From assembly GCF_021648885.1 (NCBI RefSeq), contig NZ_JAKJHZ010000010.1, positions 186,001-250,000 on the forward strand: a stretch of DNA of 64,000 nt, given 5' to 3'. The DNA comes from Nocardioides potassii. Lineage in GTDB: Bacteria > Actinomycetota > Actinomycetes > Propionibacteriales > Nocardioidaceae. A program made the translations under genes and the position numbers. The notes beneath the pieces were generated by a model. The model did not search any database. It was not told the origin of the DNA and saw only the letters and a program-made list of their open reading frames with translations. Positions 48,196-63,764 of this stretch are shown piece by piece; the stretch's first letter is position 1; each line of letters opens with the position of its first letter.

Positions 48196-48261
48196 CGTCC
48201 CGCCGTCACCGGGTGGCTGTCCCGACTTCGGACGGGACACAGAACCCGTCCCATCGGGACT
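48196..48261. promoter_or_regulatory. Operator site 1: symmetric four-half-site TGTCCC array
   Basis: Half-sites are cGTCCC (48196-48201), TGTCCC (48218-48223), GGGACA (48234-48239) and GGGACt (48256-48261). Spacing is N16-N10-N16, so the array is exactly symmetric about 48228.5. Same-strand half-sites are 22 bp apart, two DNA turns. It lies between the divergent membrane-protein gene (ATG 48131) and kinase gene (ATG 48284). The central spacer ACTTCGGA is nearly repeated in site 2. The likely binder is a NarL-type response regulator encoded nearby; this is inference. Confidence 0.75.
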
Positions 48262-48283
48262 CCTGACCAGCGATGATCACCCC

Positions 48284-50302
48284 ATGTCCCGATCGCCCCG
48301 CCTACCCGCTGCCTGGGCCCGCGGGCTCGCAGCGGCCCTCACCGGGCTCACGCTGCTGCTCGTCGGGTGGTGCGTGGCGGCCGCGTTCGTCGTGGACGGC
48401 GCGCCGTCCGGCGCCGACGTCATCCGCGGTGTCGCAGGCGGGGTTGGCTTCGGCGTGCTGGGAGGCCTCGTCGCCGGCCGGCGGCCGCAGCTGCCGCTCG
48501 GTTGGCTGATGCTCGCGGCGGGGTTGAGCAGCGCCTTCTCCTCTGCGTGCGACGCGCTCGCGTGGTGGGCCGTGGGGCGTGACCTCGGGGCGCTGGCCGA
48601 GGCGGCTTACTGGATGGCCGGCTGGAGCTGGGCGCCCGGTTACCTGCTCCCGGTGACGCTCGTCCTGCTCCTTTTCCCGACCGGTCGCCCTCCCTCCCCC
48701 CGGTGGCGGCCTGTGGTCGCACTGTCGTGGGTCGTGGTCCTCGTGGCGACGGCCGGGTGGGCGCTGACGCCGTACGAGGAGCAGGACTTCGCCCCGCCCC
48801 CTGCCTTCGCGGACGCCGAGCCTGTGCTCGCTGTCCCTGGCGCCGGTGTCTTGCTCACTGTTGCCCTCCCTCTCTTCCTGGTCTGCGCGGTCGCCGGAGT
48901 CGCGTCCGTGGTGGTGCGGTGGCGGCGCTCGGAGCCCCGGTCTCACGACCGCGACCAGCTCTCGTGGCTCGTCCTCGCAGCCGCCGTGCTCGCAGGCCTC
49001 CTCGGGATCGCGCTCGTCACGCCGGGCACGGGGCCGGGTCTGATCGCGGTGGCGATGCTCGCGGTCCCGCTCGCCCTCGCCGTCGCCATCCTGCGTCGAG
49101 GGCTGTGGCAGCTGGACCTAGTGCTCGACCGCTCGCTGGTCTACGGAGGCCTCACGCTCGCTGTGGTGGTGGTGTACGCCGCCCTGGTCTGGCTGGCCGG
49201 TTCCCTCACCGACGGGGTGGGTCCCGACCTGCGTATCGCGGCCGTGGTGGTGGCAGCGGTGGCGACGGCACCGTTGCGCGACCGCCTGCAGCTGGCCGTG
49301 AACCGGCTCCTGTACGGGGACCGGGACGACCCCGAGGCCGCGATGGCGCGGCTCGCCGACCGGCTTGACGCGGCCACGCACCCCGCCGACGTGCTCCCGG
49401 CCGTCGCCCAGGGCATCGTCCGCACTCTGCGCGTGCCGTGGGCGGAGGTGGAGACGGCACGCGGCGCTCGCGGAGGGGCCGGGACGCCGACCGGGCTGGC
49501 CGTCGACGTGCCCCTGCACTATCAGGGCCGCGAGGTCGGGACCATGCGCGTCGCACCCCGCGCCGGCGAGTCCGGGCTCGGGGCACGAGAGCTGGCGGTG
49601 CTCGAGCGCCTGGCCCGGCAGGCGGCACTGGCGGCTCACGCCGCGGCTCTCTCGGAGGACCTCGTCCGATCCCGGGAGCGACTCGTACTCTCCCGCGAGG
49701 AGGAACGGCGGAGGCTCCGTCGCGACCTCCACGACGACCTGGGCCCCACGCTGGCCGCCACCGCGATGAAGCTGGAGTCGACCCGCGACCTCGTCGCACG
49801 TGACCCTGAGGCGGCCGCAGCTGCCCTGGACGTGGCTGCCGAACGGCTGCGGGCGAGCGTCGCGGGGGTGCGACGCATCGTCGACGACCTGCGCCCACCC
49901 TCCCTGGACGGGCTCGGTCTGGCCGGCGCCCTCCGCGAACAGCTCGACCAGTTCGGCGACAGCGTCGAACTGTGCCTCGACGTACGCGTGCCGGACGAGC
50001 TGTTGCGGACGCTGCCGGCGGCCGTCGATGTCGCCGCCTACCGGATCGCCTCCGAGGCCGTCACCAACGCGGTGCGGCACGCGCAACCGACCCGGGTGGA
50101 CGTGGTGCTCGAGGTGGTCGACCACGAGCTGGCTCTGACCGTCACGGACAACGGGACCGGGATGCCTGAGCACGTCCGGGCAGGCGTGGGCCTCGAGTCG
50201 GTCCACCACCGCGCCGCCGAAGTCGGTGGCACCTGTGCGATCCACACCCGGCCGGGCGCCGGGACCGTCCTTTCAGCCCGACTACCGCTGGAGACCCCGT
50301 GA
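48284..50302 (+). CDS. NarL-type sensor histidine kinase, TCS module 1
   Basis: 672 residues. About ten hydrophobic segments fill residues 10-330, with no large extracellular loop. The juxtamembrane motif LQLAVNRLLYGDRDDP is shared with the other two kinases in this block. A GAF-like stretch follows, then HisKA_3 with RRLRRDLHDDLGPTLAAT (phospho-His near 483). The HATPase carries EAVTNAVRHAQ and NGTGMPEHVRAGVGLESV. Membrane-embedded sensing of a lipid or membrane state is likely. A GATGAT box six nt before ATG 48284 suggests a leaderless mRNA. Its stop overlaps the regulator gene as GTGA. Confidence 0.92.
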   Translation: MSRSPRLPAAWARGLAAALTGLTLLLVGWCVAAAFVVDGAPSGADVIRGVAGGVGFGVLGGLVAGRRPQLPLGWLMLAAGLSSAFSSACDALAWWAVGRDLGALAEAAYWMAGWSWAPGYLLPVTLVLLLFPTGRPPSPRWRPVVALSWVVVLVATAGWALTPYEEQDFAPPPAFADAEPVLAVPGAGVLLTVALPLFLVCAVAGVASVVVRWRRSEPRSHDRDQLSWLVLAAAVLAGLLGIALVTPGTGPGLIAVAMLAVPLALAVAILRRGLWQLDLVLDRSLVYGGLTLAVVVVYAALVWLAGSLTDGVGPDLRIAAVVVAAVATAPLRDRLQLAVNRLLYGDRDDPEAAMARLADRLDAATHPADVLPAVAQGIVRTLRVPWAEVETARGARGGAGTPTGLAVDVPLHYQGREVGTMRVAPRAGESGLGARELAVLERLARQAALAAHAAALSEDLVRSRERLVLSREEERRRLRRDLHDDLGPTLAATAMKLESTRDLVARDPEAAAAALDVAAERLRASVAGVRRIVDDLRPPSLDGLGLAGALREQLDQFGDSVELCLDVRVPDELLRTLPAAVDVAAYRIASEAVTNAVRHAQPTRVDVVLEVVDHELALTVTDNGTGMPEHVRAGVGLESVHHRAAEVGGTCAIHTRPGAGTVLSARLPLETP

Positions 50303-50958
50303 CCACCTCGTTGTCCGTCCTCGTCGTCGACGACCACCCCCTGTTCCGGGAAGGACTGGTGGAGGTCGTGCGTGGCATGCCAAGGGTAGGCCGGGTGGAG
50401 GAGGCTGCGGACGGTGCGGAAGCGGTGGCCACCGCCATCGAGATGCGGCCCGACGTCGTGGTGATGGACCTGCACATGCCGGGCGTCAGCGGCATCGAGG
50501 CCACGCGTCACATCCTCGCCGACTTGCCGGAGACACGCGTCCTGGTGCTGACGATGCTGGAGAACGACGAGTCCGTCGTGTCGGCCCTTCGCGCGGGAGC
50601 CCACGGTTACATCGTGAAGGGCGCCGCACGGGCCGAGATCGCCCGGGCGATCGAGGGAGTCGCAGCCGGAGACGTGGTGCTCGGTCCAGCGGTGGGGGCG
50701 AAGGTCCTCGGGCTGTTCAACCGAGGTGCCGACCGGGGTGACGGCCGGGTCGTGCCGTTCCCCGAGCTCACCGATCGCGAGCTCGAGGTCCTGGACCTCG
50801 TGGCCCGCGGACTCACCAACGGAGCGATCGCGCGCCACCTGTTCCTCAGCGAGAAGACGGTGCGCAACAGCGTGTCGACGATCTTCGGAAAGCTCGGCGT
50901 CGCCCACCGTGCGGAGGCCGTGGCCCGGGCGCGGGACGCCGGGATGGGCGCGGACTGA
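50299..50958 (+). CDS. NarL-type response regulator, TCS module 1
   Basis: 219 residues from GTG 50299. The receiver domain has acidic pocket Asp11-Asp12, phospho-acceptor Asp57 (VVVMDLHMPG), Thr in VLTML and Lys in YIVKGA. A LuxR-type helix-turn-helix (about 155-210) has the recognition helix SEKTVRNSVSTIFGKL. It is coupled to its kinase by GTGA overlap. Its helix core is the same as in the two other regulators in this block, so all three may bind the TGTCCC operators. Confidence 0.93.
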   Translation: MTTSLSVLVVDDHPLFREGLVEVVRGMPRVGRVEEAADGAEAVATAIEMRPDVVVMDLHMPGVSGIEATRHILADLPETRVLVLTMLENDESVVSALRAGAHGYIVKGAARAEIARAIEGVAAGDVVLGPAVGAKVLGLFNRGADRGDGRVVPFPELTDRELEVLDLVARGLTNGAIARHLFLSEKTVRNSVSTIFGKLGVAHRAEAVARARDAGMGAD

Positions 50959-50975
50959 CCCAGGTAACGAAGCAA

Positions 50976-62907: not shown

Positions 62908-62927
62908 GGGGGCCGGATCGGGAGGTG

Positions 62928-63659
62928 TCAGGCGTTCTTCCACGCCCGCGCACCGTCCTGGAGGACGTGGTGGGCCAGCCCGACCGCACCGATGAAGTAC
63001 AGCCAGTGCGGGTCGACCGGACCGACGGCGCCGATCGTGAAGTCGAGCACGATGAACACGAGCCACGCCCCCGGGATCCACCGAGGCACTCCGGCTCCCC
63101 TGACCAGCAACCCGATCGTCAGCACGAGCATGCCGATCACGGTCCCAGCCATGAAGGGCAGGGCGAAGAGCACGCCGAGCAAGGGGTCCTGCTGCTGGCT
63201 CTGCATCCACGTCGCGGCGGCCAGCCCGGCCTCACCGTCGAGGAGCGCCCGGATCTGCACGAGTCCGGTGAGCTGGAGGCCGAGGAAGCCCCACATGCCC
63301 AGGACGAGGAGCGTCCCGGCGATGCCTCCGGCACGGCGCGCCCGCCTGGTGAGCAGGTGCGCTGCGGCGACGAAGCCGAGGGCCATGAACGGCAGGGCGA
63401 CCGTGCCGGTCACGGACATGGCCGTCACGAGGGTGGGGCTGTCGGAGGCGAGGGCCACCATGTCGTCGATCGTCTCGGGCCGTCCGCCCAGCAGCTGCGT
63501 CATGACCGCCTGAGCAGTGTTGCCGGCAGCTCCGAGCACCAGCGCCGTGGCGGCGAAGGCGGCGCCGAAGGGGCGCACCGCGGTCTTCGTGGACGGCGCC
63601 ACTGTGGCGTCGGCGGGGGTGGTGCTGACCGGCGCGATGCCGGCGGTGGTGCTGTTCAT
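62928..63659 (-). CDS. Polytopic membrane protein of TCS module 3
   Basis: 243 residues. A Thr/Ala/Pro-rich cytoplasmic N-terminus of about 30 residues precedes six or seven membrane helices. Alignable stretches with the module 1 protein (SPTLVTAMSV..., PLLGVLFALPFMAG) suggest common descent. An extracytoplasmic loop carries the polar run WMQSQQQDP. AAGGAG lies seven nt before ATG 63659. Operator site 5 is 63 bp upstream. It leads the operon with kinase and regulator of module 3. Confidence 0.8.
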   Translation of the reverse strand: MNSTTAGIAPVSTTPADATVAPSTKTAVRPFGAAFAATALVLGAAGNTAQAVMTQLLGGRPETIDDMVALASDSPTLVTAMSVTGTVALPFMALGFVAAAHLLTRRARRAGGIAGTLLVLGMWGFLGLQLTGLVQIRALLDGEAGLAAATWMQSQQQDPLLGVLFALPFMAGTVIGMLVLTIGLLVRGAGVPRWIPGAWLVFIVLDFTIGAVGPVDPHWLYFIGAVGLAHHVLQDGARAWKNA

Positions 63660-63721
63660 TGCTGTCTCCTTGGTCTGTGCGGCGGTTCATCCGCCGGCAA
63701 GGAAGACATTTCCGCGACGCG

Positions 63722-63764
63722 TGTCCTAGGCACTCGGTAGCGGTGTCCTGACCTCGCTGGGACA
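63722..63764. promoter_or_regulatory. Operator site 5: TGTCCT direct repeat with GGGACA partner
   Basis: TGTCCT at 63722-63727 and 63744-63749 are 22 bp apart. GGGACA (63759-63764) follows after N9, one base less than in sites 1 and 4. The inner spacer GACCTCG resembles GACTTCG of site 1. It lies 63 bp before ATG 63659 on the minus strand, nearly the same distance as sites 1 and 2 from their minus-strand genes (65 and 67). Confidence 0.65.

Follow-up and report, generated by a model that had tools for sequence, protein, structure and literature searches.

Which protein reads the promoters of a locus where three two-component systems lie side by side, and do these promoters share one operator? 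The question is raised by a 64,000-nucleotide window of the soil bacterium Nocardioides potassii (G000:C10:186001-250000; genome of 4.28 Mb in 15 contigs), which has a G+C content of about 72%. One block of this window encodes three sensor kinase-response regulator pairs (HK1-RR1, HK2-RR2 and HK3-RR3) and the membrane proteins MP1-MP3. It also holds a 56-codon gene and the genes of an RTX protein, the secreted protein BP and the lipoprotein LP; which proteins are membrane-bound, secreted or lipoproteins was judged by eye. A preliminary description had proposed that five sites carrying TGTCCC/GGGACA half-sites form a single operator family in front of the membrane-protein, beta-propeller, lipoprotein and 56-codon genes. 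All five sites are present and our analysis supports one family. We propose that the sites are most likely activator-dependent promoters of autoregulated two-component operons, bound by the local NarL/LuxR-type regulators.

The unit first proposed for this operator was an N10 dyad; we replaced it by half-sites that repeat on a 22-bp lattice, whose anchor point lies 10 bp above the -10 element. GGGACN-N10-nAnnnT is found in 7 of 7 promoters of the window, where half-sites were chosen by eye. In the promoters of relatives, half-sites were selected by rule, without regard to the -10 element, and A-N3-T lies at exactly N10 in 25 of 27 cases, with 0.6 expected per offset; the two exceptions, L004 and L142, have it at N9 and N11. 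Without requiring a second half-site, the spacing between GGGAC and A-N3-T peaks at N10 (28 cases, the other offsets from N4 to N17 giving 1-14). We then considered 28 sites anchored only on GGGAC-N12-A-N3-T in 108 regions from relatives (Nocardioides pinisoli excluded). Upstream of these anchors, GGGAC recurs at offsets 22 (11 sites), 33 (4) and 44 (2), and GTCCC at offsets 13 (15) and 35 (5); nine other pentamers used as control anchors, with 1-15 sites each, never gave more than 2 at an offset. The consensus of 36 operators from other loci is a 14-bp box, GGGACA-NC-TGTCCC, followed by N8 and then GGGACA. The lattice, whose 22-bp pitch is two helical turns, accounts for the N8 dyads as well as for the direct repeats at 22 bp. 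As the proximal GGGACN is fixed 10 bp above a -10-like hexamer, a spacing absent from the preliminary description, the operator occupies the -35 position.

Site 1 (48196-48261) displays four half-sites, CGTCCC-N16-TGTCCC-N10-GGGACA-N16-GGGACT, which form two same-strand pairs 22 bp apart (48196/48218 and 48234/48256, the second absent from the preliminary description). We read this F-N16-F-N10-R-N16-R arrangement as two putative back-to-back operators, of MP1 and of HK1, the central N10 dyad being their junction. The -10-like hexamer of MP1 is GAGAGT (48180-48185, minus strand), 10 bp from the proximal half-site, and that of HK1 is GATGAT (48272-48277, plus strand), with the start codon 6 bp on. 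The N10 dyad reported here is exact, and it is the single occurrence of TGTCCC-N8..18-GGGACA in the genome; because it has only this match, the exact N8-18 dyad was rejected as a unit in favour of the lattice. Nor are N10 and N11 dyads most simply read as one palindrome with variable spacing, since the operators of site 1 (N10) and L003 (N11) face both ways; in these two cases, which the check covered, each side of the dyad retains its own N10 to the -10 hexamer.

Site 2 had been described as a degraded N10 dyad and is really two operators. Site 2a, ahead of BP (52438-52465, minus strand), reads GGGACA-N16-GGGACA, with its same-strand pair at 52438/52460 and CACGAT (52422-52427) as -10-like hexamer. 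Site 2b, ahead of LP (52488-52515, plus strand), reads GTGACA-N2-TGTCCC-N8-GGGACG, precedes CAGGCT (52526-52531) and holds an N8 operator at 52496-52515 that had been overlooked. Site 3, the MP2 operator (55241-55279, plus strand), contains GGGACA three times, at offsets 11 and 22, including the pair 55252/55274; the MP2 ATG lies 7 bp beyond its hexamer CAGAGT (55290-55295). At site 4, ahead of the 56-codon gene (60088-60107, minus strand), the proposed N10 dyad carries one mismatch, while the other TGTCCC gives the N8 dyad TGTCCCTGTCCCTCGGGACC (TGTCCC-N8-GGGACC), an arrangement common among relatives, with GAGGCT at 60072-60077. Site 5, ahead of MP3 (63722-63749, minus strand), reads AGGACA-N16-AGGACA, that is TGTCCT twice at 63722/63744, with AAATGT at 63706-63711; the N9 spacing proposed for its dyad is present, but with one mismatch. 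The same-strand half-sites 22 bp apart attributed to four sites belong to sites 1, 2, 3 and 5. For three minus-strand genes the preliminary description correctly placed the start codon 65, 67 and 63 bp from the site edge; this near-constancy looks incidental. The start codons of HK1, MP2 and many genes of relatives lie 6-7 bp past the -10-like hexamer, and these genes probably lack a leader.

These features suggest the following mechanism. A signal at the membrane, perhaps envelope-related, would cause a multi-transmembrane kinase to phosphorylate its own NarL/LuxR regulator. Dimers of the regulator would read GGGAC through a DevR-like recognition helix and bind cooperatively to at least two sites along a single face of the helix, and the proximal subunit would touch RNA polymerase and substitute for the -35 element (class-II activation). 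The outcome would be positive feedback on the kinase-regulator operon and output through the partner membrane protein, BP, the lipoprotein and the RTX protein. The proximal half-site lies within the promoter spacer, which would also suit repressor operators, at which a regulator bound at -28 to -15 blocks RNA polymerase. However, no recognisable -35 was seen near the -10 hexamers (by eye, unscored), unlike an activator-independent promoter, and the half-sites are stacked upstream in 22-bp steps, as in cooperative activation; we thus regard repression as unlikely.

We built a sequence-only model, R1, from the 36 operators, none of which comes from this genome; one row (L163) is from N. pinisoli, but from another contig. 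In the own-genome scan, 150 of 8392 first-look candidates were scored and 8 hits had E<0.01. Six of them fall in the block (both strands of site 4, the MP1 side of site 1, both sides of site 2, and site 3) and two at C6:253221-253340; having 6 of 8 hits inside this 17.5-kb block corresponds to a binomial probability of 1.3e-13, with block bounds set afterwards. The C6 hits (L048 4222-4341) mark a fourth kinase locus, on another contig, which has two back-to-back operators and a divergent membrane protein facing the kinase. The pattern GGGAC-N17-GGGAC-N12-A-N3-T gave 47 matches in 59 genomes and 6 in the reversed control; its own-genome matches number 6, of which 4 are in the block and 1 is at C6. 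The own-genome pattern matches C3:211383, C3:486522, C5:434392 and C7:157377 were taken as chance, two being flagged inside genes by a crude gene caller that also flags true promoters (L245, L233).

With R1 at E<=1e-4 and stricter filters, 61 of the 147 Nocardioides genomes gave hits; 20 had supplied training rows and one more, G253, is apparently N. pinisoli. Across the phylum, the same threshold gave hits in 3 of 149 genomes, this one included. We fetched 41 hits (E<=1e-4), a part of all those from non-training Nocardioides genomes. A kinase homologue is present in the fetched stretch for 34 of the 41, directly downstream in 32 and beside the operator in 2 (both in L352), the usual downstream order being operator-membrane protein-kinase-regulator or operator-leaderless kinase. 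On sequence alone, the 32 operators placed ahead of their cognate operon point to autoregulation. A regulator-type homologue accompanies 35 of the 41, counting the unrelated LuxR gene of L335. Seven hits lack a kinase. Four of them accompany proteins that look secreted, namely two with immunoglobulin (Ig)-like domains (L348, L356), a member of the ScyD/ScyE family (L347) and a homologue of BP (L337). The other three concern a contig-edge membrane protein (L357), the LuxR-type gene of L335 and, in L368, no called gene. L352 mirrors the local arrangement, with operators ahead of homologues of MP1 and LP that flank HK1-RR1. The membrane proteins of relatives match DUF4386, Frag1 or DUF6796 below the Pfam cut-off, or have no match.

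Which regulator binds these operators? In Pfam, HK1-HK3 are HisKA_3 kinases and the adjacent RR1-RR3 combine a receiver with a GerE (LuxR) helix-turn-helix domain, of NarL/LuxR type. Pairwise identity among RR1-RR3 is 49-57%, and 60-70% in the DNA-binding domains. The best solved relative of RR1 is DevR (3c3w, 9e-40). Their recognition helices compare as FLAEKTVKNYVS vs FLSEKTVRNSVS, KTVRN vs KTVKN: K and N are kept and K182 is replaced by R. The DNA contacts of DevR are made by what we take to be K179, K182 and N183. K182G is named in the title of a work cited by PMC12919924. A LuxR-type domain is present in 34 of the fetched hit loci, and 33 of these have a KT[VI]RN helix; the unrelated gene of L335 is the exception. 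In this genome, the helix of the C6 regulator reads KTIRN, and that of the one operator-less paralogue checked (C7, L049) reads KTVAN. The sharing of KT[VI]RN helices and similar operators by RR1, RR2, RR3 and the C6 regulator makes cross-binding among them likely, though unproven.

Alternatively, one global regulator of DevR/OsdR type, encoded elsewhere, could bind all sites while the local regulators bind other DNA. The geometry of the consensus box is that of the DevR box. It also matches the OsdR consensus AGGGCCGATCGGCCCT in the available part of PMC5069765. Yet the operators track kinase-regulator operons across genomes (34/41) as well as the local KT[VI]RN helices, and significant hits in this genome are confined to kinase-regulator loci. 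A single remote regulator is thus quite improbable, and binding by the local regulators remains our preferred reading.

To examine conservation, we compared the near relative N. pinisoli STR3 (L080), whose HK1 is 92% identical. The block is syntenic there over 46356-63939, with 86.8% identity, and the GGGAC/GTCCC letters of the lattice half-sites are retained at every one of the five sites. Site 3, whose intergenic region is 64% identical, keeps 35 of 39 positions, a clear footprint, and site 1 keeps 61 of 66 (92% vs 86% for the region), a mild one. At site 5, both TGTCCT read TGTCCC in N. pinisoli, and GGGACA at 63759 reads GAGACA. We also assembled the upstream regions of 109 kinase homologues, of which 29, the best matches, come from genomes of relatives and 80, the best of 508, from named genomes. 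As an inverted pair (N7-12), TGTCCC ranks first of 4096 hexamers in these regions, with 14 occurrences vs 0.15 expected, and the spacing is N8 in 10 of the 14.

Several observations weigh against local activation through this lattice. Eleven of the 36 rows of R1 come from patterns that already contained A-N3-T, so that its -10 letters are partly built in. R1 scored the HK1 side of site 1 weakly (15.2 bits, E=0.10) and did not recover site 5 in the own-genome scan. Smaller peaks lie off the lattice, at 7, 36, 48 and 60 for GTCCC and at 8 for GGGAC. The palindromic GGGAC-N4-GTCCC box is the consensus of the 36 operators, but 13 of these have GGGAC only, 16 GTCCC only and 1 neither, all at lattice places; with both exact halves in only 6, the box is partly composite. 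The comparison with N. pinisoli shows no excess conservation in the cores of site 4 (93% vs 95% for its surroundings) or site 5 (84% vs 85%), and an insertion there splits site 2 between its two operators. The link to the recognition helix speaks for the local regulators, within limits. DNA-binding domains were obtained from 99 of 108 kinase loci and usable helices from 89, the 10 loci dropped including 3 with operators of at least 30 bits. An operator hit of at least 20 bits was found at 24 of 68 KT[VI]RN-type loci vs 1 of 21 others (p=0.005), in a Fisher test that ignores shared ancestry and takes hits anywhere in the fetched locus; such a hit is absent from 44 of the 68, some of these loci being short. 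Finally, with the half-site at -28 to -23, binding would be nearer the -10 than is usual for NarL-type activators, and some sites could be repressive.

The frequency of the half-site pairs bears on two further explanations. An equal density of 22-bp TGTCCC pairs elsewhere would have spoken against a common operator, and it was not found: 2 of the 3 exact pairs of the genome, and 4 of its 15 pairs with at most one mismatch (3 in the reversed control), lie in the block. Such same-strand hexamers 22 bp apart resemble the -35/-10 spacing of extracytoplasmic function (ECF)-type alternative sigma factors, and the third exact pair (C5:360062; L032 1501-1528) precedes a gene that by eye encodes an ECF-like sigma factor. 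That pair is off the lattice, has no -10 at N10 and was taken as chance, and direct and inverted half-sites are interchangeable in operators that keep nAnnnT at a fixed 10 bp after the proximal half-site; recognition by a sigma factor is therefore very improbable. Chance repeats in a 72% G+C genome would agree with the absence of enrichment of TGTCCC-N16-TGTCCC with two mismatches in the window (7 vs 10.3 expected), but this explanation is already contradicted by the whole-genome pair counts, hexamer ranking, N10 spacing, lattice, R1 hits in the genome and genus and kinase association, and it can be practically dismissed. Counting the pair with two mismatches was dropped as uninformative; TGTCCC itself is depleted in the window (24 vs 46).

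Beyond local activation, it is possible, though doubtful, that three long-diverged sensor systems (four with C6) keep one operator grammar as a cross-wired, positively autoregulated module with shared promoters and secreted output, in place of insulated pathways, and that promoter-leader cassettes are exchanged. The leader of the 56-codon gene (60024-60077, minus strand) carries a perfect hairpin, CCGCGA-ACGG-TCGCGG, just past the expected start. In L348 (hairpin 3947-3962), the operator, the -10-like hexamer and this kind of hairpin recur ahead of an unrelated Ig-like secreted protein, and it is this recurrence of the site-4 promoter and leader that suggests cassette exchange between target genes.

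The claim that the proposed regulon had not been described stands insofar as no relevant account was found in the open-access literature searched, but the layout resembles a DevR/OsdR box. DevR (DosR) of Mycobacterium tuberculosis works with soluble GAF/haem kinases, DevS or DosT. It shares with the present regulators the NarL family and GGGAC-type half-sites, and it is the closest solved relative of RR1. In contrast, the partner kinases here are multi-transmembrane at the N-terminus, the targets seen are the two-component system itself and membrane and secreted proteins, the operators have a 22-bp pitch and a fixed 10-bp distance to the -10, and full palindromic boxes are in the minority. The N-termini of the partner HisKA_3 kinases are hydrophobic and Pfam gave no GAF hit, so a DevS/DosT-like partner is not found here; HisKA_7TM matched HK1 and HK2 below the Pfam cut-off, and HK3 not at all. 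No universal stress protein was present among the proteins scanned, the flanking genes not being systematically covered. For DevR, close-packed boxes, a proximal box overlapping the -35, divergent promoters and cooperative binding are described in the available part of PMC3029386. The OsdR box of OsdKR of Streptomyces coelicolor shares the GGGNCN-N2-NGNCCC geometry but has a GGGCC half-site instead of GGGAC, and its regulon concerns stress, development and hypoxia, as far as the available text of PMC5069765 goes.

Two other systems share part of this design. LiaFSR of Bacillus, NarL type and autoregulated, also combines an accessory membrane protein with a kinase and a regulator. MP1-MP3, however, have no match in Pfam or NCBIfam, and thus none to the LiaF family, and the operator is different. 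LiaF is described as a negative regulator in the accessible part of PMC3543457. The pho box of PhoB is an activator site in a comparable position, with its end about 10 bp upstream of the -10 and in place of the -35, and the operator here also stands about 10 bp above the -10, in the place of the -35. PhoB differs in being an OmpR-family winged-helix regulator that reads 11-bp direct repeats.

The lattice allows promoters to be predicted for a family of kinase-regulator pairs that is found repeatedly in Nocardioides and for which we found no characterised regulon in the open-access literature searched, and links this family to a DevR-type half-site. It names likely outputs: partner membrane proteins, secreted proteins of BP, ScyD/ScyE and Ig-like type, RTX proteins and lipoproteins. 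Insulation vs cross-talk among paralogous sensor systems becomes testable at one 16-kb locus.

The genes of the block are ordered as follows. MP1 (47418-48131, minus strand; 237 amino acids) is polytopic by eye, and its orthologue in L352 is weakly DUF4386-like. HK1 (48284-50302, plus) is followed by RR1 (50299-50958, plus). BP (51040-52371, minus; 443 amino acids) has no Pfam hit, "beta-propeller" being a label of the preliminary description; its L337 homologue is under an operator. LP (52580-53110, plus) has 176 amino acids, and its L352 homologue lies downstream of an operator. The overlapping RTX-repeat frame (52786-55128, plus) has eight HemolysinCabind stretches and a real start beyond 52786. 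MP2 (55303-56094, plus), polytopic by eye, precedes HK2 (56104-58161, plus) and RR2 (58158-58808, plus), both assigned by Pfam. The 56-codon gene (59852-60022, minus) was read from the sequence. On the same strand lie RR3 (60146-60790), HK3 (60787-63210 as the longest frame, its real start probably near 62.9 kb), again assigned by Pfam, and MP3 (62928-63659), polytopic by eye. A plasmid search with the site-2 region gave no match.

Outside the genus, R1 also hits named non-training loci, among them Micromonospora (L134, L127), Streptosporangium (L144), Jatrophihabitans (L097), Blastococcus (L101) and several Chloroflexota contigs; some of these hits lie away from the kinase. Related dyads occur in Chloroflexota (L115 3308-3350, L102 142-185, L123, L130), those of L115 and L102 being GTCCCATGAC-like, and could represent an earlier version of this operator. 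Genus-wide, the dyad count (59 vs 13 in the reversed control) is noisy and inflated by coding matches and by a different dispersed palindrome, and GTCCC-N8..11-GGGAC-N12-A-N3-T (128 vs 43) is likewise noisy and not main evidence. This dispersed Nocardioides palindrome, approximately CCGAGTCGGCGCNNC-TGTCCC-N8-GGGACA-GNTGCGCCGACTCGG, is found in L064, L176, L178, L179, L190, L193, L194 and L195 and looks like a repetitive extragenic palindromic (REP)-type repeat.

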